Assembly (NCBI RefSeq): GCF_026210795.1
Contig: NC_089435.1
Coordinates: forward strand, 4,898,001-4,962,000
Direction of reading: 5' to 3'
DNA: 64,000 nucleotides
Source of the DNA: Rhizophagus irregularis
Taxonomy: Eukaryota; Glomeromycota; Glomeromycetes; Glomerales; Glomeraceae
Made by a program: the position numbers and the translations under genes. The notes beneath the pieces were generated by a model, which made no database searches, was not told where the DNA came from, and worked only from the letters and a program-made list of their open reading frames with translations. Shown one piece after another: positions 3,491 to 63,782 of this stretch (position 1 is its first letter; each line of letters starts with the position of its first letter).

Positions 3491-5679
3491 TTAATCTTGT
3501 TTTGTATTGTTTCTTGTGATGTTAAGATTATCCTCTCTAACAGCTTGAAGAAGTTCATTTTTTAAATTTTGGCCAATTTCATTTTTAACAGCTTGAAGGA
3601 ATTCATTTTTCAAATTTTGGCCAATTTCATTTTTAACAGCTTGAAGAATTTCATCTTTAAAAATTTGTGATGATGCCCTATTATTATTATAACTATTAGT
3701 ATTAACTACTGCAGGAGCTGGAATTGTTGGTTCGTGATCATTATTATTTTCATTTTGGAGCGTTTGCATAATTTCTTGCCCATGATGATCATTGGCTGGA
3801 ATTATTATTGGTTCATGGTTGGTTGTATTTTCATTTTCGGGTGTTAGAATAATTTCTTGCTTACGATAGTTATTCTTATTAATTATTGGAGGTGGAATTA
3901 TTATTGGTTCATAATTGGACGTACTTTCATTTCTAGGTATTTGATCAATTTGAATAGTTTCTTGCTAATTATTATTGATATCTTGTTCATAATTATGAAT
4001 ATCTCTTACGATAGGAAGCTCCTTTTCTTCTTGACTGTAATCATTATTTTTATCATTTTTATGAATAGTTTTTAGTTTATTTTTATTCCATTTATATATC
4101 AAGAAACTTCCAACTGTTAATAAAATACCACTCAATAAAGATCCCACAACTATACCAGCTATATTACCTGAATTATTTGGTGGTGATGAAGAAGATAGTG
4201 AAGGCGAAGGTGGTGGCGAAGGTAGTGGTAATGGTGGTAGTGTTGATGGTGGTGGTGATGGCATTTTTGGATCAAATATTGTTGTCCATATATATTCTTC
4301 ATTATTACTAATATCAAGCAATAATATATCACCGACTTTCAACTGTTTTATCATAACTATATCCTATCAATAAATCAAAATTTGTTAAAAATAATTATCA
4401 ATCAAATTAAATAGAAGAGTATCATAAAATATTATATTTACCAAATGATATGACCATATATTTTCCAATTACATTTGCTTTATGAAAAACCCTAGGCTTC
4501 AGGATTTTTCCAGAAATTTTTGGAATGTACCAATTATAATTAGCTAAATCTAATACGTAAAGTGTGGTATCTAAATATCCAGGATTTATAAAAAATCCTC
4601 CATAAATTATAATGGAAATTTACTATTACTGACTAATATTAATCTTTTAATAATAATCATAGTGTTCTCATTTGATTACATACCAAGAATAGCAGAAAAA
4701 CCAGCTCTATTAGAAGGAATTTTTCCTGATGTTGCCTAAATTCAATAATTGAAATTAATTCACAACTGAATATAAAAAATTTCATCATAATAATTTGCAT
4801 TACTTACTTTTGTATCCCAATTGTCATTAATTATATCATACTATATATAAATCTACAAATAATTTATCATAATTAATTAGATTTATTTTTTTTAAAAAAA
4901 ATTTATATATTTACAAAATATACCTCACTTAATATTAAACCAGTTCCTTTATCAATATTCAAAGTATTAGCATTATAAGTAATAGCATAATCCTAAACAA
5001 TAAGTGTTCATTAATAAAATAACAAGTATATTTAAATAAATATAATATGTCGCTTACCTATGTAAATAATCTTATTGTTAGGTAATAAATGGTACCATAA
5101 TTAATTCTTGGATTTGGAGCGTTAATTATACTACCTTTACTCCAATTAAGATTTATTGTATCTAAAATAAGCATTTCATTTACATAATCAGTATTTGTTT
5201 CCCCACTCCATAAATACATCCTTCCGTCTTTATTAATAATGCTTGTTAAATCCCATTTTCTAAATGTAACTCCAGCTATTTTTGGAATACTCCATATAAT
5301 ACTTCGTGAATCAAATGTATAAACCAATGCCATCGTTTGATCAACTGTAAATCCTCCGAATAAAAATAGAGTATCATTATTTGGACCACCTTTAACTGCC
5401 GTTGCAGAAGAATGAGGTGGAACCATATTAATATTTGATATCTTGCCATGATAATTCTTAATTATTAAATGGTGCAGAAACATCAAGATAAAAAAATTCT
5501 TTTATTTGGTTATTATTTAAATCATATCCACCCAAAATATATAATTTATTATCAATGAGTGTAGCAGTATGGCGATGATATACAGTTGGCTTAAAAGGCG
5601 TCATTTGACAATTTACTTTAACTACTAATGCTTGAAGTAGTATCCATAATATGAAATAAACTGAAGGATTTCTTAACAT
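3491..5679 (-). pseudogene. Kelch-domain type I membrane protein, copy K1 (decayed)
   Basis: Aligned with the intact copies K2-K4, this copy keeps the gene plan (signal peptide at 5679, kelch exons, membrane segment, repetitive tail) but carries many lesions. In exon 1 a CAA codon became TAA at 5458-5460, a 2-nt deletion follows near 5445, and a 1-nt deletion lies near 5086. Exon 2 is 11 nt short. The 3' splice site and first codons of exon 5 are deleted near 4605. Four extra bases near 4331 shift the start of exon 6, and a GAG-to-TAG change stops the tail at 3965-3967. The tail also has fewer repeats than K2-K4. No single transcript could give a full protein. It sits at the downstream end of the array, and its 5' flank is cut by a 5.3-kb transposon. 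Confidence 0.88.
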
Positions 5680-14520: not shown

Positions 14521-14769
14521 TAGCATTGGTGTTCTAGTAAATAGTTTCAGCCTTTCAAGTATTTCAGGCATTCGGTCTTTAGGAATTTATTTTCTTTAAC
14601 TTACCAGTCTCTTTTTTCTTTTTTTTTTGGTCAGGTTTTTTATTTTATTTTGTTTGACTTGCTTCTTTTTTTGTCTTGGGTTTTGTGACAATTTTATTTC
14701 TTCTGATGCTTTGGGCTTACATCATATCTTTTAATATTTGGATTTTCGTTTCTTTTGATACCTTGATTT

Positions 14770-15240
14770 TAAATTGTTTCATTTGATACCTTTATCTTCA
14801 TTCCTTCTTCATTACTCTCCTTTTTTTGTTTCTTTTCACCCTTTATTCTCATTCCTTTATCGTCTCCTTCCTTTTTTTTGTTTCCTTTTCATCCTCTTTT
14901 CTTTTTTTTTCATTTCTCTTCATTCCTATTTCATCTTCATTCTCTTTCTTTTTTTTCGTTCCTCTTCGTCTCCCTTTTTTATTTTTCTTTATCATTTTCT
15001 TTCTTTCTGTTCTTTCTTTATTTTCGTTTCCTCTTGTTCCTCTTCTTCTTTTTCATTTCTTCATCTCCTCCTTTCAATCTGTTTCTTCTTATTCTCTTTT
15101 CTTTTTTTTCATTTCATCTTCTTCACCTCCGTTTTGTTCATTTCTTTCATCTCTCTTTTTTTTCATTTATCCCTTTATTTTTTTTTATTCTCTTTGTTCC
15201 TTTTCATTTCCTTTTATTCTCCTTATTCCTTTTTATTCCA
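14770..15240 (+). repeat. Almost pure T/C (polypyrimidine) tract, about 470 bp
   Basis: The plus strand is almost entirely T and C with few purines, built from TTCTTTTTT, CATTTC and TTCCTCTT words. All three plus frames stay open only because stop codons need purines, so the long Phe/Ser/Leu frames here are composition artefacts. It follows the intron-shaped array inside the 1.6-kb element and may be an overgrown form of its polypyrimidine spacers. Confidence 0.85.
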
Positions 15241-16576
15241 CTTACTTTGGAATTCCGTAATGAAAAACTATATGATGTTTTAAGTTAAACAAAGACGAGA
15301 TAAATGACATTAATAAAGATGCTAACGAAGAATCAAATGATGCTAGTGGTAAACTAAATAATAAATATGTTTCTTTTGGTTTTCATTTCTTTTATATTTT
15401 GCTTTTTCCGATATTTACTATTTCATTTTTTCTGATGCTACGTCTATAATTCTTTGACTTCAATTTTAGTTGATCAAATAAAATAGTCAACAATGGCTAA
15501 ATAAAATTTATAAGTGCTTTTTTTTAATTTTTTTTTATTAAGAGAAGTGTGATAAAAAAACCCCCATAATAAAGCGAAAAAAATGTTTTATAAGTGCTAC
15601 AAGTGGTTTTAACCAATCAAATTTTATAAATCAATCACGTGACTAGGGTAGTAAAAACATGATACCACCCTGGGTGGTGGCTAGACAACTCCATAAATAA
15701 ATAAACTAAAAATAAATTAAATTTTGTGCAACGAAAAAAAAAATAAATATCATTTTTTTTCTGTTCTGCCGAATATTGTATGGTAAAAGTTTTTATACTT
15801 ATTTATTTATTTATTTACTTTATTTCTAAAAGAGTAGTAAATCTAAGACTATTACAAATAAAAGCAGATGGCATTTTCATGCGAAATAACTAATATGCGT
15901 GTATAGATCTCAAACTATTATCCCATATGAGACCTCACTCTTCAGTCGAAACTATTTGAAAAAATAGGACTACGCTAATTAATCAAATGGTAAAAGTTTT
16001 TATACTTCTCTCTTTTAAATTTTAAAGACTACATTGCAGAAACCCGTGATTTGTTATAAGTCAATTTGGTAACCAACACGTGATGATGTGATTTCAGACG
16101 TTCATCGTGAAATTATTGATAGATGGTAAATATCATCGAAGAAATTAATTCAAGATATTTTTTCGATGTATTAGATATTATTTAACGATGAATCTACCGA
16201 TTTCTTAAGTTTTTTGTTTTGTTTTTTTATATATATTTTTTTGTTTTTTGTCATCTCTTTTATTAAATAAAAGTTAATTAATATGAAATTATAATAAAAT
16301 TTCATTGTAATAAAAAAACGATTTATATAAATTTCATTGTAAAAAATTATAAAATTGTAAATAAAAAACGCTGTTTTAATATTAATAAAAAATGCTGTTA
16401 TGAAAAAAAAGTCATAATAAAATACAATAGAATTATTGAAGAAAAAAGTGTCATCATATAATAAAATAATTATCTATCATAATAAAATGCCTATTGTGAA
16501 GATTTTATTATACAATAAAATACTGTATTATATGTTAACTAAATAGCTTATTGACTTATTATGCAGACGTCCAAGA

Positions 16577-20695: not shown

Positions 20696-22980
20696 TTAAT
20701 CTTGGTTTGTATTGTTTCTTGTGATGTTAAGATTATCCTCTCTAACAGCTTGAAGAAGTTCATTTTTCAAATTTTGGCCAATTTCATTTTTAACAGCTTG
20801 AAGGAGTTCATTTTTCAAATTTTGACCAATTTCATTTTTAACAGCTTGAAGAATTTCATCTTTAAAAATTTGTGATGATATCCTATTATTATTAGGTGTT
20901 GAAATTACTTCTTGCCCATACTTATAATTATTAGTATTAACTACTGCTGGAGCTGGAATTGTTGGTTCGTGATCGCTAGTATTTTCATTTTGGAGCGTTT
21001 GCATAATTTCTTGCCCATGATGATCATTAACTGGAATTATTATTGGTTCATGGTTGGTTGTATTTTCATTTTCGGGTGTTAGAATAATTTCTTGCTTATG
21101 ATAGTTATTCTTATTAATTATTGGAGGTGGAATTATTATTGGTTCATAATTGGACGTACTTTCATTTCTAGGTATTTGATCAATTTGAATAGTTTCTTGC
21201 TCATTATTATTGATATCTTGTTCATAATTATGAATATCCCTTATGATAGGAAGCTCCTTTTCTTCTTGACTGTAATCATTATTATTATCATTTTCATGAA
21301 TAGTTTTTTGTTTATTTTTATTCCATTTATATATCAAGAAACTTCCAACTGATAATAAAATACCACTCAATAAAGATCCCACAACTATACCAGCTGTATT
21401 GCCTGAATTATTTGGTGGTAATGAAGAAGGTGAAGGCGAAGGTGAAGGCGAAGGTGGTGGTAATGGTGGCAATGTTGATGGTGGTGGTGATGGTGGTAGT
21501 GTTGGTGGTGGTGGCATTTTTGGATCAAATATTGTTGTCCATATATATTCTTCATTATTACTAATATCAAGCAATAATATATCACTTTCAACTGTTTTAT
21601 CATAACCATATCCTATTAATAAATCAAAATTTTTTTTGTTTTGTTAAAATAATTATCAATCAAATTAAATAGAAGAGTATCATAAAATATTATTTTTACC
21701 AAATGATACAACCATATATTTTCCAATTACATTTGCTTTATGAAGAGCTCTAGGATTTGGGATTTTTCCAGAAATTTTTGGAATGTACCAATTATAATTA
21801 GCTAAATCTAATACGTAAAGTGTAGTATCTAAATATCCAGTATTTGTAAAAATTCCTCCAAAAATTATGATTCTTTTACCATCTAAACCTGTTGAAAATA
21901 TAATGAAAATTTACCATTACTGACTAATATTAATCTTCTAATAATAATCATAGCATACTCATTTTGATTACATACCAAGAATAGCGGAAAAATCAGCTCT
22001 ATTAGAAGGGATTTTTCCTGATGTTACCTAAATTTAATAATTGAAATTAATTCACAACTGAATATAAAAATTTTCATCATAATAATTTGTATAACTTACT
22101 TTTGTATCCCAATTGTCATTAATCAAATCATATATATAAATCTACAAATAATTTATCATAATTAATTAGATTTATTTTTTAAAAAAAATTTATATATTTA
22201 CAAAATATACCTCGCTTAATGTTAAAGTAGTTCCTTTGGCAATATTCAAAGTATTAGTATCAAAAGTAGTAGCAACATCATTATCACCACCTAAACAATA
22301 AGCGTTCATTAATAAAATAACAAATATATTTAAATAAATATAATATGTCGCTTACCTATGTAAATAATCTTATTGTTAGGTAATAAAACGGCACCATAAT
22401 TCATTCTTGGAGTTGGGGCGTTAATTATACTTCCTTTACTCCAATTAAGATTTATTGTATCTAAAATAAGCATTTCATTTACATAATCAGTATTTGTTTC
22501 CCCACTCCATAAATACATCCTTCCGTCATTATTAATAATGCCTGTTAAACTCCGTTTTCTAATTGTATTAACTCCAGCTATTTTTGGAACACTCCATACA
22601 ATTCTTTGTGAATCAAATGTATAAACCAATGCCATTGTTTGATCTGTACTAGCTCCTCCGTATAAAAATAGAGTATCATTATTTGGACCACCTTTAACTG
22701 ACGCAGCAGAAGAATGAGGTGGAACCATATTAATATTTGATAAATCTTGCCATGATAATTCTTGAGTATTAAATGGTACAGAAACATCAAGGTAAAAAAA
22801 TTCATTTATGCGTTTTATGTTTAAATCATATCCACCCAAAATATATAATTTATTATCAATGAGTGTAGCAGTATGACGATTATATACACTTGGCTTAAAG
22901 GGCGTCATTTGACAATTTACTCTAACAAATATTTGTATTAGTATCCATAATATGAAGTAAACTGAAGAATTTCTTGACAT
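20696..22980 (-). CDS. Kelch-domain type I membrane protein, copy K2
   Basis: Six exons on the minus strand: 22980-22356, 22290-22211, 22141-22100, 22027-21976, 21888-21700, 21612-20696. All introns are GT-AG with donors like GTAAGC, GTATAT and GTAAGT, and the phases fit, giving 634 residues. Residues 1-23 form a signal peptide ending near NC. Kelch-type blades follow (RHTATLIDNKLYILGG, TLFLYGG, GRMYLWSG, KIIYIGG, KRIIIFGG, KYMVVSFG), then a Pro-rich stalk (about 362-396), one membrane span (about 403-424) with a basic stop-transfer sequence, and an Asn/Glu-rich tail. The tail ends in two copies of an EIGQNLKNELLQAVKN-type amphipathic repeat. Predicted role: a surface propeller with a cytosolic scaffold tail; the ligand is unknown. 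K3 and K4 have the same exon plan. Confidence 0.88.
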
Positions 22981-23740
22981 GATCGTAATTTACTTAATAA
23001 TTGAAATGAATAATATTTAAGGAAAAAAATATTTATTCACTTTTTTAAAAAAGAATTTTACGGTATTTAAATGTTTAACGTTACACTTAGCATTATAACA
23101 TGGTTGCATAGAACGGCGGAATCATAATATTCAAGTATTTATTTTTTCACAATAATATAATTAATGCACACCCACATACTCTATGCAAATTTATTAGCAC
23201 AATTTCCACATGTATTGCATAAAATCATAAGATAAAAATAGCAAATTCAATAATGTTAAAACGTTACCCAAATAATTAAATTAATTTTTTGGCTTGAAAA
23301 TACGCTGTGTAAAATAAGATGATCCAATAAGAAATAAATTGTTACGATGTTTGTGATCAACAAGAATGATCAAACCTAAATAAATATGCAGTGTATTATC
23401 GTGTTAAATTGCATTTGAAAAATTCAAAAGTACTGTAGATGACTTAAATGCTGATTGAAAAGTTAACTATCTCAAAAAAAAAAATTTCTTGAAACTATGA
23501 ATTTTCCTTGCCGATGAAAGTCTTGCGATTACATAACCTTCATGAATGTTTGAATTTATAAATAAAAAAACAAATAGTATAACGATTCACTTTAGGCATA
23601 AAATTGGTTAAATATATAATGTGGACCGCAGGGTCGATTATCCGTAGAAGTTGCATAAAAAACAGAATGGTTAAAATAATAGATTCTATTTTAAATTTCT
23701 ATATCAAGTAATATAATGAATTGGCTTCTGCATGTATTTA
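22981..23740. repeat. Conserved upstream region of K2
   Basis: All four kelch copies share the first 120 bp upstream (an ATTTTACGGTATTTAAAT block next to an A/T run, then TTACACTTAGCATTA). K2-K4 then continue GCATAGAACGG into the longer flank block. The part nearest the ATG probably holds the promoter; a distinct TATA element cannot be singled out in such AT-rich DNA. The GCATAGAAC word at 23107 is the empty site for the 5.3-kb element in the K1 flank. Confidence 0.6.
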
Positions 23741-36565: not shown

Positions 36566-39094
36566 TTAATCTTGGTTTGTATTGTTTCTTGTGATGTTAA
36601 GATTATTTAAATTTTGGCCAATTTCATTTTTAACAGCTTGAAGGAGTTCATTTTTTAAATTTTGACCAATTTCATTTTTAACAGCTTGAAGAATTTCATC
36701 TTTTAAAATTTGTGATGATATCCTATTATTATTAGGTGTTGAAATTACTTCTTGCCCATAATTATAATTATTAGTATTAACAATTGCAGGAGCTGGAATT
36801 GTTGGTTCGTGATCACTAGTATTTTCATTTTGAAGCGTTTGCATAATTTCTTGCCCATGATGATCATTGACTGGAATTATTATTAGTTCATGGTTGGTTG
36901 TATTTTCATTTTCGGGTGTTAGAATAATTTCTTGCTTATGATAGTTATTCTTATTAATTATTGGAGGTGGAATTATTATTGGATAATTGGACGTACTTTC
37001 ATTTCTAGGTATTTGATCAATTTGAATAGTTTCTTGCTCATTATTATTGATATCTTGTTCATAATTATGAATATCCCTTACGATAGGAAACTCCTTTTCT
37101 TCTTGACTGTAATCATTATTATTATCGTTTTCATGAATAGTTTTTTGTTTATTTTTTTTCCATTTATATATCAAGAAACTTCCAACTGATAAAAAAACAC
37201 CACCCAATGAAGATCCCACAACTACACAAGCTATATTGTCTGAAATATTATGTGGGTCTGACATATTATGTGGTGATGAAGAAGAATGTGAAGGCGAAGG
37301 TGAATGCGAAGGTGGTAGCGAAGGTGGTGGTAATGGTGGCAGTGTTGATGGTGGTGTTGGTGGTGGTGGCGATGGCATTTTTGGATCAAATTCTGTTGTC
37401 CATATATATTCATCATTATTACTAATATCAAGCAATAATATATCACTTTCATCTGTTTTATCATAACCAATTCCTATTAAATCAAATTGTTTTTGTTAAA
37501 ACTAGTTAACCTGATTAAGTAATAATTTAAGGAATATTATATTTACCAAATGATACAACCATATATTTTCCAATTACATTTGCTTGATGAAGAGCTCTAG
37601 GCTTTGGGATTTTTCCAGAAATTTTTGGAATATACCAATTATTATTAGCTAAATCTAATACGTAAAGTGTAGTATCTAAATATCCAGGATTTATAAAATA
37701 TCCTCCAAAAATTATAATTCTTTTACCATCTAAACCTGTTAAAATATAATGAAAATTTACTATTACTAATATTATTAATCTTTTAAAATAATCATAGCGT
37801 TCTTATTTGATTACATACCAAGAACAGCGGAAAAACCAGCTCTATTAGAAGGGATATTTCCTGATGTTACCTAAATTTAATAATTGAAATTAATTATTCA
37901 AACTGAATATAAAAATTTTCATCATAATAATTTGCATAACTTACCCTGTAAAAAAAAAATGTCCGGAAATTGTAGCTAAAAACATCCGGAAAATGTCCGT
38001 GTGTCCGGAAAACGTCCAGAAAATTGCAATATTCCGGACACTTTCTGGACGCTGGGTCTGAACCCTCCTAGACATTTTCTGGACATTTTCTGGAAAATGG
38101 AAATTTTCCAACGTCCGGAATATTGCAATATTCCGGACATATTCCAGACAAATAAACATTTTCCGGACGTTTTCAGCTACAATTTCCGGACATTCTTTTT
38201 TTATAGGGTTACTTTTGTATCCCAATTGTCATTAATCATATCATATATATAAATCTACAAATAATTTATCATAATTAATAGATTTATCTTTAAAAAAAAA
38301 TTTTATATTTACAAAATATACCTCACTTAATGTTAAAGTAGTTCCTTTAACAATATTCAAAGTATTAGAATTAAAAGAAGTAGTATCATAGTCATTACCG
38401 CCTAAACAATAAGTGTTCATTAATAAAATAACAGATATATTTAAATAAATATAATATGTCGCTTACCCATGTAAATAATTTTATTGTTAGGTAATAAAAT
38501 GGCCCCATAATCAGTTCTTGGAGTTGGAGCATTAATTATACTTCCTTTACTCCAATTAAGATTTATTGTATCTAAAATAAGCATGTCATTTACAAAATCA
38601 GTATTTGTGCACCCACCCCATAAATACATCCTTCCGTCGTTATTAATAATGCCTGTTAAACCCCGTTTTCTAATTGTATTAACTCCAGCTATTTTTGGAA
38701 TACTCCATACAATACTTTGTGAATCAAATGTATAAACCAATGACATTGTTTGATCTGTACTAGTTCCTCCGTATAAAAACAGAGTATAATTATTTGGACC
38801 ACCTTTAACTGATGCTGCAAAACCATGCGGCGGAACCATATTAATATTTGATAAATCTTGCCATGATAATTCTTGAGTATTAAATAGTACAGAAACGTCA
38901 AGATAAAAAAATTCTTTTATTACATTTCTGTTTAAATCCAACCCACCCAAAATATACAATTTATTATCAATAAGTGTAGCAGTATGACGACAATATACAT
39001 TTGGCTTAAAGGGTGTCATTTGACAATTTACTTCAACTAATACTTGTATTAGTATCCATAATATAATGAAGTAAACTGAAGAATTTCTTGACAT
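36566..39094 (-). CDS. Kelch-domain type I membrane protein, copy K3
   Basis: Six exons: 39094-38467, 38401-38322, 38254-38213, 37870-37819, 37735-37547, 37473-36566; 632 residues with all phases consistent. Same plan as K2: signal peptide, kelch blades (KLYILGG, TLFLYGG, GRMYLWGG, KIIYMGG, KRIIIFGG), Pro/Ser stalk enlarged by HNMSDPHNISDN, membrane span, and a tail ending in one complete and one shortened EIGQNL repeat. The third blade ends WGG as in K4, where K2 has WSG. Intron 3 holds a 265-bp transposon (37944-38208) immediately beside the donor of exon 3. The target duplication left GTAA at the donor, so splicing is still possible. Closest to K4. Confidence 0.86.
37944..38208. mobile_element. 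265-bp palindromic TIR element in K3 intron 3
   Basis: Starts CCCTGTAAAA and ends TTTTATAGGG, with long inverted arms built from GTCCGGAAAATGTCC-type words. A 3-bp duplication TTA flanks it (37941-37943, 38209-38211). K2 (about 22097) and K4 (about 43933) have the uninterrupted ACTTACTTTTGT site, which proves the insertion. An almost identical copy in reverse orientation lies at 58514-58777. A 3-bp TTA/TAA-type duplication suggests PIF/Harbinger mobilisation. The ORFs across it are palindrome artefacts. Confidence 0.92.
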
Positions 39095-39810
39095 GATCGT
39101 AATTTATTTAATACTAGTAGAAATGAATAATATTTAAAGAAAAAAATATTAATTCACTTTTTAAAAAAAGAATTTTACGGTATTTAAATTTTTAACGTTA
39201 CACTTATTAGCATTAAAAACATGGATGCATAGAACGGCGGGATCATAATATTCAAGTATTTTATTTTTCATTAATGCACACTCACATACCCTATGAAATT
39301 TATTAGCACAATCCACATGTATTGCATAAAATCATAAGAAAATAATAACAAATCCAATAATGTTAAAACGTTACCCAAATAATTATTAATTCTTTGACTT
39401 GAAAATACGCTGTGTAAAAAAAGATGTTCCAATAAAAAATAAATTGTTACAACAAGAATGATTTTAATTCTTTAAATTATACCTAAATAAATGTGCAGTG
39501 TATTATCGTGTTAAATTGCATTTGAAAAATTCAAAAATAGATGACTTAAATGCTGATTGAAAGTTAAGAATTTATCTTTCAAAAGAAAAAAAAAATTTTC
39601 TTGAAACTATGATGAATATTGATAAAAAAACAAATAGTATAATAATATATACATATATATCTTTCACTTTTTGCATAAAATTGGTTAAATATATAGATCC
39701 TTAACGGTAACAAGAGAATGGTTAAAATAATAGTTTCTATATTAAATTTCTATATCAAGTAATATTATAATGAATTGGATTCCGCATGTATTTATAATTA
39801 CACAACTACC
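39095..39810. repeat. Conserved upstream region of K3
   Basis: Matches the K2 and K4 upstream flanks: TTTTACGGTATTTAAATTTT, TGCATAGAACGGCGGGATC and TGCAGTGTATTATCGTG. It carries deletions relative to K4 (for example near 39270 and 39620). It contains the empty site for the 423-bp element found upstream of K4 (TATATCAAGTAATATTATAA near 39752). Confidence 0.7.
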
Positions 39811-42524: not shown

Positions 42525-44814
42525 TTAATCTTGGTTTGTATTGTTCCTTGTGATGTTAAGATTATTTAAATTTTGGCCAATTTCATTTTTAACAGCTTGA
42601 AGGAGTTCATTTTTCAAGTTTTGACCAATTTCATTTTTAACAGCTTGAAGAATATCATCTTTAAAAATTTGTGATGATATCCTATTATTATTAGGTGTTG
42701 AAATTACTTCTTGCTCATAATTATAATTATTAGTATTAACTATTGCAGGAGCTGGAATTGTTGGTTCGTGATCACTAGTATTTTCATTTTGGAACGTTTG
42801 CATAATTTCTTGCCCATGATGATCATTGAGTGGAATTATTATTGGTTCATGGTTGGTTGTATTTTCATTTTCGGGTGCTAGTATAATTTCTTGCCCATGA
42901 TGATCATTGACTGGAATTATTATTGGTTCATGGTTGGTTGTATTTTCATTTTCGGGTGTTAGAATTATTTCTTGCTTATGATAGTTATTCTTATTAATTA
43001 TTGGAGGTGGAATTATTATTGGTTTATAATTAGACGTACTTTCATTTCTAGGTATTTGATCAATTTGAATAGTTTCTTGCTCATTATTATTGATATCTTT
43101 TTCATTATTATAAATATCCCTTATGATAGGAAGCTCCTTTTCCTCTTGACTGTAATCATCATTTTCATGAATAATTTTTTGTTTATTTTTATTCCATTTA
43201 TATATCAAGAAACTTCCAACTGATAACAAAATACCACTCAATAAAGATCCCACAACTATACCAGCTATATTACCTGAATTATTTGGTGGTGGTGAAGAAG
43301 AAAGTGAAGGCGAAGATGAAGGCGAAGGTGGTGGCGAAGGTGGTGGTAATGGTGGTAGTGTTGATGGTGGTGGCGATGGCATTTTTGGATCAAATATTGT
43401 TGTCCATATATATTCTTCATTATTACTAATATCAAGCAATAATATATCACTTTCAACTGTTTTATCATAACCTTCTCCTGTTAAATCAAATTGTTTTTGT
43501 TAAAACTAGTTATCTGCTTAAGTAATAATTTAAGGAATATTATATTTACCAAATGATACAACCATATATTTTCCAATTACATTTGTTTGATGAAAAGCTC
43601 TAGGCTTTGGGATTTTTCCAGAAATTTTTGGAATGTACCAATTATAATTAGCTAAATCTAATACATAAAGTGAAGTATCTAAATATCCGGGATTTATAAA
43701 ATATCCTCCAAAAATTATGATTCTTTTACCATCTAAACCTGTTAAAAATATATAATGAAAATTTACCATTACTAATATTAAACTTAAATAATAATCATAG
43801 CGTTCTTGTTTGATTACATACCAAGAACAGCGGAAAAACCACCTCTATTAGAAGGGATTTTTCCTAATGCTACCTAAATTTAATAATTGAAATTAATTCA
43901 CAAAAATTTTCATCATAATAATATGCATAACTTACTTTTGTATCCCAATTGTCATTAATCATATCATATACATAAATCTACAAATAATTTATAATTAATT
44001 AGATTATTTTTTTAGAAAAAAAAAATTTATATATTTAGTAAATATACCTCACTTAATGTTAAAGCAGCTCCTTTAACAATATTCAAAGTATTAGTATCAA
44101 AACTAGTAGTAGCATCATTACCGCCTAAACAAAAAGTGTTCATTAATAAAATAACAAATATATTTAAATAAATATAATATGTCGCTTACCCATATAAATA
44201 ATTTTATTGTTAGGTAATAAAATGGCCCCATAATCAGTTCTTGGAGTTGGAGCATTAATTATACTTCCTTTACTCCAATTAAGATTTATTGTATCTAAAA
44301 TAAGCATGTCATTTACAAAATCAGTATTTGTGCACCCACCCCATAAATACATCCTTCCGTCGTTATTAATAATGCCTGTTAAACTCCGTTTTCTAATTGT
44401 ATTAACTCCAGCTATCTTTGGAATACTCCATACAATACTTTGTGAATCAAATGTATAAACCAATGCCATTGTTTGATCAGCTGTTAATCCTCCGTATAAA
44501 AATAGAGTATCATTATTTACACCACCTTTAACTGACATTGCAGAAAAATGAAGTGGAACCATATTAATATTTGATAAATCTTGCCATGATAATTCTTGAG
44601 TACTAAATGGTACAGAAACATCAAGATAAAAAAATTCTTTTAGTCCATTGTTGTTTAAACCCAGTCCACCCAAAATATACAATTTATTATCAATAAGTGT
44701 AGCAGTATGACGACTATATACACTTGGTTTAAAGGGCGTCATTTGACAATTTACTTTAACTAATACTTGTAATAGTATCCATAATATGAAGTAAACTGAA
44801 GAATTTCCTGACAT
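42525..44814 (-). CDS. Kelch-domain type I membrane protein, copy K4
   Basis: Six exons: 44814-44190, 44124-44048, 43977-43936, 43873-43822, 43738-43550, 43477-42525; 645 residues, phases consistent. Exon 2 is one codon shorter than in K2 and K3. Order as in the other copies: signal peptide, kelch blades (KLYILGG, TLFLYGG, GRMYLWGG, KIIYMGG, KRIIIFGG), Pro/Ser stalk, membrane span (AGIVVGSLLSGILLSVG) and tail. The tail has an extra tandem copy of the QEIILxPENENTTNHEP then IIIPxNDHHG unit (42840-42960), so repeat number differs between paralogues (K2 and K3 have one such unit, here two). The C-terminus has the shortened second EIGQNL repeat, as in K3. Confidence 0.87.
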
Positions 44815-45380
44815 GATCGTAATTTATATAATAGTAAAAATGAATAATATTTTAATATTTAAAGAAAAAAATATTATTCACTTTTTAAAAAAAGAATTTT
44901 ACGGTATTTAAATTTTTAGTGTTACACTTAGCATTAAAAACATGGTTGCATAGAATGGTGGGATCATAATATTCAAGTATTTATTTTTCACAATAATATA
45001 ATTAATGCACACCCACATACCCTATGCAAATTTATTAGCACAATTTCCACATGTATTGCATTGCATAAAACCATAAGATAATAATAACAAATCTAATAAT
45101 GTTAAAACGTTACCCAAATAATTAAATTAATTTTTTGGCTTGAAAATATGTTGTGTAAAAAAAGATGATCCAATAAGAAATAAATTGTTACAACAAGAAT
45201 GAACCTAAATAAATATGCAGTGTATTATCGTGTTAAATTGCATTTGAAAAATTCAAAAATAAATGACTTAAATGCTGATTGAAAAGTCAAGAATTTATCT
45301 TTCAAAAGAATGAATTTTCCTTGCTGATGAAAGTCTTGCGGGTCATGAATATTGATAAATAAACAAAATAGTATAATAAT
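44815..45380. repeat. Conserved upstream region of K4
   Basis: Same order of landmarks as upstream of K2 and K3 (TTTTACGGTATTTAAATTTT, GCATAGAATGG, TTAATGCACACCCACATACC, TATGCAGTGTATTATCG). The promoter presumably lies in the first 150 bp before the ATG at 44814. No other feature seen. Confidence 0.65.
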
Positions 45381-53222: not shown

Positions 53223-55255
53223 TTAGTTAATCTGGTTTATTATTACCCGATTGCGGCCACTTTCTTTGGCCTTTCGACAAGCCTCTTCAGCATGATTCAA
53301 TAAGTCAGTAGAAGTTTCTACCGATGAGTTTATTTCGAAAACACCAATGCTAAGCGTAATAGAAAATTTTTCCTCATTGAAAGTAATTGAGTGTTTTTCA
53401 ACAGAATGTCAAATTTTTTCAGCAATTTCAGAGGCCGATTTTGCATCAGTAGTATTATTAAGAAGAATAGTAAATTCATCTCCACCATATCGTGCAAAAA
53501 TATCCTTAGGACCAATATGTTCATTTTTAATTAACTCGGACAATTCTTTTAAAATGTGGACTCCAGATTCATGGCTATGTTGTTTATTGATTTCTCCGAA
53601 TTTATCCACATCAAAAAACAAAAAACTCAAACTTTGTTTATTTTCTCTAGCATTTTCGAATTCATTTTCCAAGCTTTTCCGCAAATAATCCGTGTTGTAA
53701 ACGGGTAAAAGTTTATCCATACGGTTCTCATATTTTCCAGCGGGAAGGTATTGGAAAACTGCTCTTCCTAATTTAATTAAATCGTCTTTTTCTAAAGTTT
53801 GAGAAGCTCGAAATTCGAGTTTTTTATCATTTACATAAATCCCAGATTTAGATCCCAAATCGAAAATTTCGACTTTTCCTTGAAAACTTTTAATTTTTGC
53901 ATGCTGTTTACCAAGTTCTTGATCTTTTATAATAATATGATTTGATTCAGTTCTTCCAACAAATGTTTCATTTTGGGTAAGGAAGAGATATGGGGTTTCT
54001 TCATATAAACCTTTATTAATAAATAAACAAGCTTCTTTCTTTGACGGAGCATTATTTCTCTTAAGGTAAACATTTGGAATATAATCAGAATCTTGATATA
54101 AATGGTTAATATCAATGTCTCCAAGGCTTCGAGCGATCTCTTCAATTGATGGTCGTTTTTTAGGATCGTTGCTCCATGCACTTTCATAAAGCTCTATGTA
54201 ATCTATTGGAGTTGAATTGACTGGAATTTCCTTATTTTTCTCATGAGGGATTTTGCCACTAGATATTTGCCATAGTATCAATCCAAGGCTGTAAATATCT
54301 GAAGATTTGTCGTATTTATAATCAGCGTTAGAACACATCGGATCCACGTAAATATTATCCCCAGGATCAGATATTTCTTTAAGATCGTCAAGTTCGGAAA
54401 GATGATCAAGAGACACGGATTGATTAAATCCTATAATCACAAATGTGCCATCATGATCTAATATGTATTTTGGACACTATTCATGACATTTATGTATAAA
54501 TTTTAGTAAATAATGCAATAAAAATTAAGAATATGAATTGTTTAGCAGGGTCTAAACTAGTTTGGCTGTTAATAATAAATCGATTATTTTTTGCCAATTT
54601 TAATACTCACCAAAACACGGTGTACAATATTTGCTTTATGGATATATTCTACTAAGCCATTGGAAATATCTGCAGCTATTTTTATTTTAAGAGTCCAATC
54701 CATTTTTTCAATATTATTTTTATTTTCTAAATAATCCTTAAGATTTTCACCATAGCATTGCTGCTGAAACACCATAGAGTAATACTTCTTAGAAGGTTCT
54801 GAAATAATGATGTGATAAAGTGAATTATAGATCGGATTAAATGCGAGAATTTAGATGTTTAAAATAGAAATCATATATGTAACCTTTTGTAACGCCATAA
54901 AATCTCATTACGTTTTTATTTTGGTCAACGTCTTTTAAATTCATTACATACCTATTTGTTTTCATTTAAAAATTAGGTGGAAAATTGAAATATAGAACTT
55001 ATGTACATTAACAATCGATGATTTAGGGCTCGTTATAATGTTAATCACTTCTCTGTGAAGCTTTTTATAATATTTATCTTCGTCACTCTAATCTAGTATA
55101 TATTTGATAATGACTCTGCCTTGAGATTCTATATAGGCTTTTTTGATCTCATGTGGCCCTACGTTTGGAATCGCTTCTACGCATTCAAAATTGTCGTATT
55201 TGAACTCCTTTAAAGCACGATTACTGATAAAGATTTGTAATAATATCCATATTGT
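53223..55255 (-). pseudogene. Degenerate kinase - FHA - GGDEF fusion gene with two in-frame stops
   Basis: Minus strand. N-lobe coding from 55255 (FKYDNFECVEAI, RVIIKYIL) meets TAG at 55088-55090. Exons 54951-54884, 54798-54611 and 54476-53223 follow with GT-AG borders; the end of the first exon is unresolved. The kinase-like part keeps the VIIK lysine but reads HRVL for HRD, KY for KN and GFN for DFG, so phosphotransfer is unlikely. The C-lobe is typical (SSDIYSLGLILWQISSG). An FHA domain spans 53993-53745 (VGRTESNHIII, HAKI, DLGSKSGIYVN), a phosphothreonine-binding fold. Then a bacterial-type GGDEF domain (53720-53226): FFDVDKFGEIN, RYGGDEF at 53492-53472, SITLSIGV, AKESGRNRV. GGDEF enzymes make cyclic di-GMP from two GTP. 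TGA at 53409-53411 interrupts it, but the frame resumes for 61 codons to TAA at 53223. The inhibitory RxxD site reads GPKD. It is either a young pseudogene or a gene with two sequence errors or read-through. Confidence 0.85.
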
Positions 55256-55630
55256 TTAGAGGAGGATCACACCGGGTCTGTGGATCTTGTTGATCAATAG
55301 TTAGAAAATGTGATGGTGGTGACCTAGTGGGATTTTCACGAATTATTACACGAGTGTCGAGGGTTAGAGTTCTTTAAAGGAACGTTATAGTAGATGCGCA
55401 AACTTGATTATCGAAGTAATTTCTTTATTGAATTCTTATTGAACTGGTTAGTGAAGAGGATAAAGACCTTTCTTTTAGATACAATTTAAATTAGGAAAAG
55501 GCCCAAAAATTTTATAGATCTATATACAGAATTTTTATACTTTTTCTTTTAACGTACTGTACATGACAGACCAAAATCACTTTATACGGAATAATGGAGA
55601 TAAGCTGAATTTAGTGGCGGCTTATTTTAG
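55256..55630. other. Upstream spacer of the kinase-FHA-GGDEF gene
   Basis: A first exon may lie here, because the N-lobe frame has no ATG, but no convincing exon could be chosen. The sequence 55260-55400 is less AT-rich than average. No repeats. Confidence 0.35.
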
Positions 55631-55733
55631 AATGAGCATCAGAATGAACATCAGAATGAACATCAGAATGGCATCAGAATATGGACATCAGAATGGAGAA
55701 TGAGCATAGAACGGGCATCAGAATGAGCATCAG
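55631..55733. repeat. Minisatellite with CATCAGAATGAA-type unit
   Basis: About eight imperfect copies of a 12-bp unit (GAGCATCAGAAT, GAACATCAGAAT, GGGCATCAGAAT) in 103 bp. In one direction it would stay open as coding sequence, but there is no gene context. Confidence 0.85.
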
Positions 55734-59230: not shown

Positions 59231-60714
59231 TCATTTATTAACAATATCTACAAATTAAAAAAAATGAATGAACGTCAATATAAAGAATAATGAAAAAAAG
59301 CAAAAAACACGTTATATAGAAAATGAGAAAATAAGAAAGGTATATATAAATTTCTTACCAGGAAGTTCACGGCAATCTTGATCAACTTCTGAAAAGGATG
59401 AATGTTAATATAGAGCACGAATAAATAAGATGATGGCTTCAAAATTTACCTGCGGATGGCTCTTGCGATTTAGGAGTTGGATTATACATTCCTGCACGAT
59501 ATCTCCTGTCTTCTTTGCTTTTTTCATCATCAGCTTCCTCAAATTGTTTCGCTTCCTCATCACTGCGGCTCTCCTCAGTAGGGAACCAACCTAGCACGGA
59601 CTGCCATTTCATTATTTTCTCTTTAATGTCTAGAGCAGTTGGACGATTTTGTGGATCACTATCCCAACAATTTCTTATCAAAGTTGCATAGCATTCGGGT
59701 ATTTCTTTGGGAATTTCAGGTCTTAGGCCATTATTCTTGATCCGACATACAAGTTCATTATCATAGGAGAGATCTGCATAAGGTTTTTCCCCAGTTCCCA
59801 CTTCCCATAAGATCATTGCAAAGCTATAAATATCAGATGCCTCAGTGTATGGTTTTTTATTTAATACTTCAGGAGCGATGTAAGGTATGACACCAATAAT
59901 TTTTTCCGTTTTTTCTTCACTGGCTTGTTTAGATAACCCCAAGTCGGTGATACGTGAGGGATACAGAAGATCTTTGAACTGCAAAATGTTTCCAGTATGG
60001 AGATCACGATGTGTCATACCAGTTACATGAATTATTTCCAAGCCCGCGACTATGTTTCGAAGAATATCAAGTTTTCGACGCCAATATAATTTGGCTTTGT
60101 TATTTTGAAGGTATTCTCGTAAATCACCATTTTCCGCGTATTCCATTACTATTGCATAATTTTTCGTATCCGGATTTTGAGTGATGCCAAGATAGCTAAT
60201 AAGATGACGACTAGCACATTGAAAATATGCTTCAAGCTGCAAATTGTTTAATAAGTTAATTAAAAATGTGTGGCATACTAATACAATTAATGACATTATT
60301 AACGTGAAATACATATAATGATAATACCTCAGCGATAAAATCATCACTAATATTGTCCGAATTGTTCATAGTTTTTAAAACAACTTTCATTTTTCCTTGT
60401 CTATGCCATTGATTCATTTTATGATTCCATCGTACAACATAACCATTTATCCAAGTTGCCAGAGATATTGTTCCATAACCACCTTTAGCAAAATCTTTTT
60501 CGTTTATTTCAAGATCTTCATAGGGAATCCATTCAAGAAAAAGAATAGTGTTGATAAGGGATGGTCTAACATATTTAACTAGTTCGTCAATTTTTTTGTT
60601 TCCACTTGACCGATTTTCATATTTTTTTTGATTTTGATATTGCTCTTTAATACATGGTTGACAAGGGAGCTTATCTATTTTACACTGATCACATTCTGAA
60701 CAGTTGTGAGACAT
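59231..60714 (-). CDS. Protein kinase with Cys-rich N-terminus
   Basis: Four exons: 60714-60328, 60236-59450, 59388-59359 (30 nt) and 59247-59231 (17 nt, ending DIVNK); 406 residues, phases consistent with GT-AG borders. Residues 4-21 hold a C-x2-C...C-x2-C set (NCSECDQC, CQPC) that could bind zinc. The kinase domain follows: Gly-rich loop FAKGGYGTIS (75-84), catalytic Lys114 (VVLK), hinge MEYAENGDL, HRDL with D207, N212, DLG at 227-229, APEVL, DIYSFAMILWEVGTG and the C-lobe Arg in RPTA. All catalytic residues are present, so it should be active; the tyrosine-kinase-like style is common in large fungal kinase expansions. ATG at 60714 is preferred over 60855, because the upstream part is hydrophobic and ends in an acceptor-like CTTTAG just before the ATG. 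Confidence 0.88.
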
Positions 60715-61445
60715 TGGCCTAAAGTAAAAAATCAAGATATGTAAAACAAGAACTTCCTTTGACTCCTTTCTTTCTTGTCGTTGTGAAAAATTTTGTAATA
60801 TGTATATTTTTAAAAGTATATGAGACAAGAGGAAAAACAAAGAATTTATTTTCACAAGTTATCCAATTTATAAGATTCATTAACATTCAAGATAACACAA
60901 TTTATTAATATTATTTAAAATATATTTTTTCATTTGGAAGAAATTATTGAATATGTTACAAATAGAATAGGAACAATGAAATTCTTTTCTTTCAAATTTT
61001 CAAATTTGGAAATTTTTATGGTTTGCCCAGAAGGCCAGAACAGATTTTCCATTTCAAATCATAACAAGGTGTGACTTGTGAGCCGTGAACGCCAAGGATT
61101 TCTATAAATGACTAAAATAATCACCTTATCCTAAAAAAAAAATTGTTTATTTATACAATAAAACTTGTTTTGTCTTAATTTTTTTGTTTAAACACACGGG
61201 CTGTGCATTGTGCAGTGATGTACATTGGAAGCTTCTAATGGAATTGGAAGGTTCGGAAGCTTCCAATGAGCATGTGTAACAAGTTTATTTTTTATAATGT
61301 ATGTCGAAATATCATTGATTATCATTTGAATGAAATCAAATAAGTTATAAATGAACTTGTCAGAATTTTTTCTTCTAATTCAATTATATTTTAAATTATT
61401 TTTTCAATTATTTTTTAAAAAAAAATAAATTTCACAAATAAAATC
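60715..61445. promoter_or_regulatory. Divergent intergenic region between two kinase genes
   Basis: 731 bp between the starts of the minus-strand kinase and the plus-strand HeLo-kinase-Sel1 gene, so it probably holds both promoters. An inverted GGAAGCTTC/GAAGCTTCC motif occurs twice near 61228-61268 (TTGGAAGCTTCTAATGG and TCGGAAGCTTCCAATG). GAANNTTC-type repeats are the form of heat-shock elements, so stress control is possible but unproven. Confidence 0.4.
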
Positions 61446-63782
61446 ATGAAAGAAACATTTTCAAGTTTTAACGTTGATGTATTAGAAAGTGTTAAAGATC
61501 ATGGAATAAAAGTTATACAAACAACTGCAGATATTATTCAAAATTTAATTCCACATTTTGATATAGCAATTAATATAGCATCATGTATATTAGAGATTTA
61601 TGAAAAAGCGAAAACGAATAAAAAAATTTGTAGAGTATTCGCTGATAGAGTGGAATTAGCTTTAACATCAATAAATTATTTAAAAAGGCATATGGATAAA
61701 AATGTTGAAAAATTTCGAGAAAAAAGTTATTTTAAAAATTTTATGCATTTTATTGAAGTATTAGACAAGATTAAAAATTTTGTTGAAGAAATTTCTGAAA
61801 TTAAAGGTTTTAAAAAATATCTCGTCGCTAATGTAATTAATCAACAACTTAATGAAATTAGGGATGATTTTGATCATTGGTATAAATCATTACAACTTGT
61901 TATTACTATTGGTGATGTCATCAGTCGTGAAATTGAAAATGAAGAGATAAAAAGTGATTTAAGTCAATTAAAAGGTCTTTATGAAGATATTAAACAAAAT
62001 TTTAATATAACTGATCAAAAATTATCTATTATTACTGCAAAAATTGAAATGTTAGAGAAAAATTCTTCAATTTTGGATAAATCCAAACCACCTGAAATTG
62101 GTCCGGAACATCTTACTGTACCAGAAGAACCCATCATAGAACGTAATAGTGTTATATTAAGAAAATATAAAAATTTTGATGTCGCTTGTAAGCCAACTAA
62201 ATATTCACTTAACGATACTAGTCCGGATTCAAAAAAAGCTGGTGCAACTCTAACAATTTGGAATGAATTAAATGAATGTCCTTATATAATTAAATTTTTT
62301 GGAATTTCAAATTTGGATATATACACTGAAAATGTTATGGTTTTAGAATGGGCTGAATTTGGTGATTTAAAAAGTCTTTATGAGAGTAAGAATCTTAATT
62401 GGAAACTTAAATTAAGTATGGCGAGAGATATTTTTCGTGGTCTTTGTTTCTTGAATTATATTCGTAAGTTCTGTTTATTTAGTATTAGTTATTTTTTATT
62501 AATATTTACGTCGTAAACTAAATTTATATCAACCACAGGTGTTTTACATCATGATGTTAGATGTGAAAATATTTTGGTAAGTTCTTTGATTCATCAGTTA
62601 TTAATTAAATATTGACTATATGCTGATTTTATTAATCTGTATAATTTAAAGGTAGCTGAAGGATTTAAATGTAAAATAACCAATTTTACTTTAAGCCGTA
62701 AAACAAAATATGTAACTACCAAAGTACATGATGATGAGAGTTCGAAACAAATGATGCGTTGGATGGCTCCTGAGAAACTTAAATCTTATCAAAAATCAAA
62801 TCAAAATACGAAAATAGAACCATATACTTATGCGTGTGAAATGTTTAGGTATGTAATCAGGTTGGCTAAAGATAAATTATATAAATAAGAAACAACTTTT
62901 TAAATTCTTTTTTTCTTTTATAGTTTTGGAATGCTTCTTTGGGAGCTTTCTTTTAATAGAGTACCATATAAAGACATGGAATATGATGAAATAATTGAAC
63001 ATGTTATGAGTGGAAAACGAGAAACATTAGACTTTGTAAATTGTCCACGTGATATAATTGATGGTTTCACCGAAATTATTACATTGGCATGGCAACATGA
63101 AAATCGCAAGCGTCCGTCAACCCAAAAGGTCTCAAAAATTCTTGAATCATTATATAAATCTTACGAAAATAATTTATTAAATTTAAATGAAGAAACAAAT
63201 TATGAATCTCAAAAATGTTCTTCTACTATCTCTACCACTACCAGTAATAATACTATTGAATTTGTTAATGAGTATGTCCTTGATCTTTTACCATTATCAA
63301 AAGGTATTGAACATCATAATTTAAAAGCTAAGAAAACGAAATCAGAACAAGATTACAAAATTTGTTGGGAATGTTTCAATGCACACGCAAATCTTGGTAA
63401 TAAAACGGCCATGTATTGGAAAGGACTTTATTTATGGAAGGGTTTTGTTGAAGAGAATCAAATTGAAGCAAAAAGATTATTTAAAATTGCAGCTGACTCT
63501 GGAATAGCTGAAGCTCAATTAGAATATGCTTTTGCTTATGATAGTGAGAATCTTGAAAATCCTGATTTACCTTTTAATGAAAAAGAATGTTGGAAATATT
63601 TAAAAATGGCCGCTGAAAATAGTAATCCTACAGCATTATACCACGTAGGTATTACTTATTATAATGGAAATGTGGGAGTGCAACAAGATAAAGAAAGAGG
63701 TATTGAATATCTTAAACTTTCCGCTTTACAAGTTAATCCTAAAGCAATTGAAACATTAAATAAATACGGAGTTAATCTTTAA
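61446..63782 (+). CDS. HeLo/4-helix - pseudokinase - Sel1 protein (MLKL-like architecture)
   Basis: Exons 61446-62463, 62539-62576, 62652-62848 and 62924-63782; 703 residues, GT-AG introns, phases consistent. Residues 1 to about 200 are helical and amphipathic (ADIIQNLIPHFDIAINIAS, then coiled-coil segments), resembling the HeLo/MLKL four-helix region that acts on membranes in cell-death proteins. The kinase-like domain (about 235-560) has VACK (K249), HHD (D345) and N350, but DFG is NFT (N363) and the Gly loop is unrecognisable, so it is probably a pseudokinase or a weak kinase. From about 580 on are Sel1-type repeats (AMYWKGLYLWKGFVEENQ, EAKRLFKIAADSGIAEAQLE, ALYHVGITYYNGNVGVQQD), which are protein-binding solenoids. 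Likely a regulated effector or signalling adaptor; ligand and trigger are unknown. Confidence 0.87.

Follow-up and report, generated by a model that had tools for sequence, protein, structure and literature searches.

Background

Can a fungal genome capture a bacterial gene for a diguanylate cyclase, join it to a kinase of its own, and keep the product working? The question is raised by a locus of Rhizophagus irregularis, within a 64,000-nucleotide stretch of DNA (the window in what follows; C7:4898001-4962000) from a 32-contig genome with a length of 146,748,485 bases. A sequence-only reading of the window had described a gene with introns, whose kinase C-lobe runs without a break into an FHA domain and a full-length GGDEF domain, and had proposed that a bacterial FHA-GGDEF gene was transferred as a unit, became fused to a host kinase-like gene, and would, if functional relatives exist, link phosphothreonine recognition to cyclic di-GMP (c-di-GMP).

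Several known systems bear on this proposal. In Bdellovibrio bacteriovorus DgcB, as described in PMC6733907, a phosphothreonine of the protein's own N-terminal tail binds the FHA domain, and the trapped tail licenses c-di-GMP production. A eukaryotic diguanylate cyclase acquired by horizontal transfer has been reported from Dictyostelium (DgcA; PMC10559540, PMC10399225), and an expanded kinase family from Rhizophagus (PMC8647823). The sequence-only reading knew of no described fungal GGDEF protein, and our search of the literature, with subscription papers and preprints mostly outside its coverage, likewise found no published fungal GGDEF gene. The Rhizophagus transfer table of PMC5982333 (Table 1) identifies its donors no further than as bacteria or plants and has no entry for a GGDEF or FHA protein, and GGDEF and FHA are absent from the main text of PMC11291939.

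Results

A kinase-FHA-GGDEF frame that is interrupted near its end

The predicted gene model (Table 1) consists of three exons and two GT-AG introns, both upstream of exon 3, joined into a 438-aa frame that starts at the ATG at 54944. The third exon is an unbroken frame of 355 aa plus stop (53409-54476, minus strand), in which Pfam matches follow one another in the order kinase C-lobe (2.6e-4 and 2.8e-4, both below the curated cut-offs), FHA (5.4e-13) and GGDEF (9.6e-21). The introns and the continuity from kinase through FHA to GGDEF thus stand as first described, as do the named GGDEF motifs (FDVDKF, RYGGDEF, LSIGV and AKESGRNRV, all in frame). The domain is, however, not full-length as assembled, since an in-frame TGA (53409-53411) cuts it 3' of the GGDEF motif. 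The 61 codons that follow (53226-53408) form an open frame, to which the last part of the GGDEF model gives a match (6.9e-7), and the read-through protein matches TIGR00254 at 5.8e-36 and the solved structure of DgcB (6hbz) at 4.4e-35, so that the resemblance to GGDEF and FHA proteins is far beyond chance.

Table 1. Features of the fused gene, in positions of the window
Feature	Positions	Strand	Remarks
Possible upstream kinase N-lobe exon, with in-frame TAG (55088-55090)	55007..55255	-	Assigned by eye only
Exon 1 of the minimal gene model	54884..54944	-	Predicted from the joined frame; in-frame ATG at 54944, end of kinase N-lobe (..NVMRFYGVTK)
Intron 1, GT-AG, 85 bases	54799..54883	-	From splice sites and frame only
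Exon 2, from the kinase hinge as far as the catalytic loop, with HRV in HRD position	54611..54798	-	
Intron 2, GT-AG, 134 bases	54477..54610	-	From splice sites and frame only
Exon 3, one unbroken frame: kinase C-lobe, FHA, the larger part of GGDEF, terminal TGA	53409..54476	-	
Kinase-like C-lobe and linker to FHA, GFN in DFG position	54036..54476	-	
FHA domain, bacterial DgcB type, two pocket residues replaced	53727..54035	-	
GGDEF domain, interrupted by TGA	53226..53720	-	Metal and phosphate residues kept, guanine-contact aspartate replaced
In-frame TGA within the GGDEF domain	53409..53411	-	Column holds the same residue in 33/33 near relatives
Open frame 3' of the TGA, C-terminal third of GGDEF (LSIGV, AKESGRNRV), ends in a stop	53223..53408	-	

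On the kinase side, 54584-54850 gives a weak kinase match (PF07714, 8.5e-6), and exon 1 matches the paralogue locus L095 (NQRKVDYHKNIIRFYGISK, E 1.5e-4). Further upstream, a reading as kinase N-lobe runs into the TAG at 55088-55090; up to E 1, Pfam gives nothing for 55088-55255, and among the paralogues the upstream stretch finds at best a match with an E of 0.24, which rules out a confident N-lobe there. At 55628-55732, also upstream of the fused gene, inspection by eye showed a short and imperfect tandem repeat whose unit resembles TTCTGATGCTCA.

The neighborhood of the gene contains other kinase-related frames. A kinase frame with HRDL lies at 59439-60365 on the minus strand (PF07714, 3.5e-41), and the plus-strand frames at 61419-62516 and 62904-63782 encode Sel1 repeats and a kinase C-lobe as well as an MLKL-type N-terminal domain (PF22215, 1.7e-7). 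Elsewhere in the window, on the minus strand, a Kelch-like frame is repeatedly paired with a proline-rich one that contains a stretch like a membrane span (3491-5501, 20696-22989, 36566-39103 and 42525-44823). By eye these pairs are closely similar, which suggests a tandem gene array in 40 kb; Pfam confirmed Kelch domains at 5058-5501 and 44164-44823 only. Three overlapping low-complexity frames rich in phenylalanine and serine occupy a T-rich stretch at 14759-15288 on the plus strand, and a tRNA search within the 64-kb window found none.

The locus within the fungal genome

All searches on the fungal side concern this one genome. It matches in size the published DAOM197198 assembly, which is described in PMC10234402 as having 32 scaffolds and 146,773,001 bases, built from long reads with Illumina polishing and Hi-C, at a quality of Q36.27. 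Within it the gene is single copy, with no second DNA match to 53223-54944, and a six-frame profile search of the 147 Mb found the GGDEF match at this locus and no other; a protein search returned one further match, at chance level (E 0.58). Six-frame searches for EAL and PilZ found neither, while the same searches were positive in control genomes (GGDEF in 8 of 14, EAL in 6 of 14, PilZ in 5 of 14). A wider fungal c-di-GMP system was rejected on these results, within the reach of six-frame searches, all of which can miss weak matches in a genome with introns. GC content at third codon positions (GC3) is 0.22 over the FHA-GGDEF part and 0.26 over the kinase part to which it is fused.

The kinase part belongs to an expanded host family

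By similarity over the kinase domain, the kinase part is a member of the expanded Rhizophagus family, which is very large: with 150 of 2834 candidates scored, at least 163 genome matches reached E ≤ 1e-3, two of them its own exons, and the ten best family members are 37-45% identical to it. The HRD and DFG motifs of active kinases are absent, with HRV and GFN in the frame. Eight paralogue loci could be aligned at the catalytic loop; HRD stands in L086, L087, L089 and L091 (L089 and L091 overlap) and other residues in L088, L090, L092 and L093. As half of the aligned loci also lack HRD, its loss is common in the family and may predate the fusion. DFG was seen in paralogues L090 and L093. In most alignments of the C-lobe to paralogues, some 10-15 residues are missing from the fused protein.

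Bacterial relatives and the origin of the FHA-GGDEF part

Among solved structures DgcB is the best match in sequence. It aligns with the read-through protein over both FHA and GGDEF, as do its relatives, and the fungal gene is of DgcB type in having the FHA domain followed by the GGDEF domain. A Foldseek search with the predicted model also placed DgcB first, at an rmsd of 12.2 over the whole alignment, a value that reflects a different relative placement of the domains.

A scan of bacterial genomes was considered for the best 80 of 452 relatives. Its best 15 rows carry Oligoflexia, Bdellovibrio or Bacteriovorax-type names, except for L007 (Proteobacteria) and L011 (Lysobacteraceae); the genome of L007 belongs to the same class as that of L006. 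Within this class, hereafter the nearest class, matches at E ≤ 1e-30 are present in 52 of 58 genomes (best 3.6e-66, identity 35-44%); in 51 they span both domains and in one (G031) GGDEF alone. Its FHA-GGDEF proteins are the nearest relatives found, with up to 44% identity end to end. The NCBI phylum of the named loci of this class is Bdellovibrionota, apart from L007. Across the phylum, with at most 6 candidates scored in each of 368 genomes, matches at E ≤ 1e-45 occur in 87 genomes, and the nearest class takes every one of the best 42 places. The genomes of L013 (Bacteriovoracia), L014 (Bacteriovorax) and L023 (Bdellovibrio bacteriovorus) lie outside it.

Searched alone, the FHA part finds all 65 bacterial rows; of the frames of at least 50 aa at the other 8 fungal FHA loci it finds none. 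For this reason we ruled out that the fungus combined an FHA domain of its own with a GGDEF domain acquired separately, and FHA and GGDEF, judged by these searches, came from bacteria as one unit.

A tree was built from 66 rows, i.e. the fungal protein and 65 of 110 locus proteins. Left out were 6 duplicates of included loci, the partial L028 and L042, L043, and 36 rows (L047-L083 except L074), most of which match GGDEF only; L049, and partly L047, L056, L071 and L080, extend into FHA. The fungal protein falls within a 34-row clade (nearest class plus L011) with support 96/89, and the group of class and fungus is weaker, at 85/83. The terminal branch of the fungus is very long (2.95), and approximately unbiased (AU) tests do not reject a placement beside Bdellovibrionia (p 0.301), beside the Bacteriovorax clade (p 0.467) or beside a group of Myxococcota and Acidobacteriota (p 0.308). 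The nearest class is therefore the best donor by similarity rather than a proven one, and neither tree nor AU tests fix an exact donor. A plasmid source was considered and set aside; among the 40 of 888 plasmid records listed, matches are at 24-41%. L011, titled Lysobacteraceae, has an FHA-GGDEF protein that stands beside the Bdellovibrionota class in the tree (96/89), which suggests that the genome bin is chimeric or carries a wrong label, or that a further transfer took place.

Functional sites of the FHA and GGDEF domains

The fungal protein was compared, site by site, with the 65 bacterial FHA-GGDEF rows. In the FHA domain, with pocket residues of DgcB taken from PMC6733907, Ser75 and Asn97 are invariant in all 65 rows and replaced in the fungus, and Arg61 and His78 are kept. 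Of the phosphothreonine-pocket set of arginine, serine and asparagine, the fungal sequence thus retains only Arg61. The near relatives carry two conserved tail threonines (33/33 and 32/33); the fungal protein has no threonine from the end of its kinase part (RPSIEEIARS) to the point at which its FHA domain begins, as read directly in the frame, the alignment of near relatives having begun at the fungal FHA start. The linker between FHA and GGDEF, 28 residues long in 65/65 bacterial rows, has 18 in the fungus.

In the GGDEF domain, the GG(D/E)EF motif with its second glutamate, the metal aspartate (D327 column in PleD numbering), N335, K442 and R446 are kept, the last two in columns positioned after the stop. 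Changed in the fungus are K332, D344 and the glycine of the GH pair, each of them present in 65/65 bacterial rows, and the I-site arginine of 60/65 bacterial rows is a glycine. According to PMC7288161, D327, N335 and D344 are essential and K332 acts through its main chain, so that the change at K332 may matter little. At D344 the fungus has valine, so that of the pair of guanine contacts N335 is kept and D344 lost. Hypr enzymes have serine or threonine in this column (PMC9140294), and valine goes unmentioned in the portion of that source available to us. AlphaFold2, given the read-through protein with 23 bacterial rows, predicts the FHA and GGDEF domains with mostly high and the kinase part with low confidence.

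Possible constraint and decay along the frame

Conservation was measured against 33 near relatives, namely 32 rows of the nearest class and L011, counts which do not represent independent lineages because some rows are near-identical (L009 with L123, L118 with L119). Among columns conserved to at least 95% in these relatives, the fungus keeps 54 of 88, or more fairly 54 of 85, since three tail columns lie outside the segment compared. When drift was simulated on bacterial coding sequences, 20% amino-acid change brought a mean of 3.6 stops, with 13% of 200 runs at one stop or fewer, and 40% change a mean of 6.9 stops in 270 codons, with no run of 200 so low. Against this, about 270 codons of the fungal gene hold one stop and no frameshift, which indicates that the frame was maintained while a large part of the divergence accumulated, either in the fungus or in an unsampled bacterial donor; whatever share arose in such a donor weakens the argument for constraint.

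The match to the commonest residue of the relatives falls across the stop, from 51/102 before it to 20/61 after it (ratio 0.66, Fisher p 0.035), and all 33 leave-one-out ratios among the bacteria at the same position are at or above 0.85. In strongly conserved columns the difference is small (23/34 kept before, 11/18 after). The weaker match after the stop argues, if weakly, against a mere sequencing error at this codon, although the TGA could be an assembly error or a strain variant.

Discussion

Taken together, these results make it very probable that a bacterial FHA-GGDEF gene was transferred and fused to a kinase-like gene of the fungus, as the sequence-only reading had proposed, given the DgcB match over both domains and the bacterial rows found by the FHA part. 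Homology of the locus to DgcB-type FHA-GGDEF proteins and to the fungal kinase family is observed directly, and from it we infer the transfer event itself. The proposed functional link from phosphothreonine to c-di-GMP is not supported, with residues of the FHA pocket and the guanine contact replaced, the kinase part lacking HRD and DFG, and the GGDEF domain interrupted; on its residues, the gene would not be a source of c-di-GMP, and a working link of this kind is unlikely.

We consider it likely that transfer and fusion are old and that the enzyme function was lost, leaving a pseudoenzyme or a decaying gene. A DgcB-type FHA-GGDEF gene from Bdellovibrionota or a close relative would have entered the fungal lineage and become fused behind a kinase-like domain of the expanded host family, a domain that stands in place of the N-terminal tail of DgcB and could once have served as an input. 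The frame would have stayed open through much divergence, but all three domains have lost key site residues (HRD and DFG, the phosphopeptide pocket, the guanine-contact aspartate and the I-site arginine), with a linker 10 residues short and a stop ahead of the last third of GGDEF. The product, if made, would have 438 residues and no complete catalytic domain. This loss of function is argued from the FHA, linker, guanine-contact and stop evidence.

A more specific form of the pseudoenzyme seems to us rather doubtful; here the fungus would produce the truncated protein of 438 residues under selection, and the FHA fold and incomplete GGDEF domain would offer binding surfaces independent of catalysis. 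It would account for a frame open from the ATG to the stop behind GT-AG introns, for the share of highly conserved columns that is kept, for domains predicted to fold with mostly high confidence in the read-through model, and for the ratio across the stop, which fits a working protein that ends near it; yet the strongly conserved columns differ little across the stop, losing the last third of GGDEF should destabilize the fold, and, if the upstream N-lobe belongs to the gene, a TAG is present and the first ATG is out of frame. Very improbable is a diguanylate or other dinucleotide cyclase that still works and is controlled by a kinase-like input, which would require that the stop is read through, is confined to a minor allele or arose from an error in sequencing. 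The GGDEF motif, the metal aspartate and the N335, K442 and R446 columns are kept, and the codons 3' of the stop are open and still GGDEF-like, but an aspartate described as essential (PMC7288161) is valine, the linker is short, FHA pocket residues are lost, and the six-frame searches of the genome show no second GGDEF match and no EAL or PilZ match. An assembly chimera or bacterial contamination, for which the divergence of the kinase part from its paralogues is the only point, is rejected as exceedingly improbable, as kinase and FHA-GGDEF share one frame and one exon of a single-copy gene with introns upstream, GC3 is similarly low in both parts, the locus lies within a chromosome-scale contig, the matching published assembly was built from long reads with polishing and Hi-C, and the best bacterial identity found is 44%.

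The gene differs from each of the systems that it resembles. Like DgcB it has FHA followed by GGDEF, alignable over both domains, but a kinase-like domain instead of the threonine tail, an altered pocket, I-site and guanine contact, a shorter linker and a stop inside GGDEF. With Dictyostelium DgcA, compared here by description, it shares a prokaryote-type diguanylate cyclase gene that reached a eukaryote by transfer; DgcA, however, is active and has a known role, whereas the fungal gene combines an FHA-GGDEF unit with a kinase-like part and has lost residues of its sites. Hypr GGDEF enzymes, Bd0367 among them (PMC9140294), also do not have aspartate in the D344 column, but they have serine or threonine where the fungus has valine. 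Within the Rhizophagus kinase family, the fused gene differs in being single copy, in its HRV and GFN, and in the FHA-GGDEF part behind the kinase part.

These analyses document a GGDEF-bearing gene inside a fungal chromosome and trace it to FHA-GGDEF proteins of Bdellovibrionota. There is a slim chance that an intact kinase-FHA-GGDEF protein, with its origin in a DgcB of the Bdellovibrio phylum, persists in other strains or species of these fungi and makes a cyclic dinucleotide under host kinase-like control, perhaps not c-di-GMP, because the guanine contact is changed. If such a functional relative exists, it would be the first second-messenger synthase of this class in fungi. If no strain of Glomeromycotina keeps a working copy, the locus would still be a clear case in which a bacterial signalling unit was captured by an expanded host kinase family and then lost its site residues.
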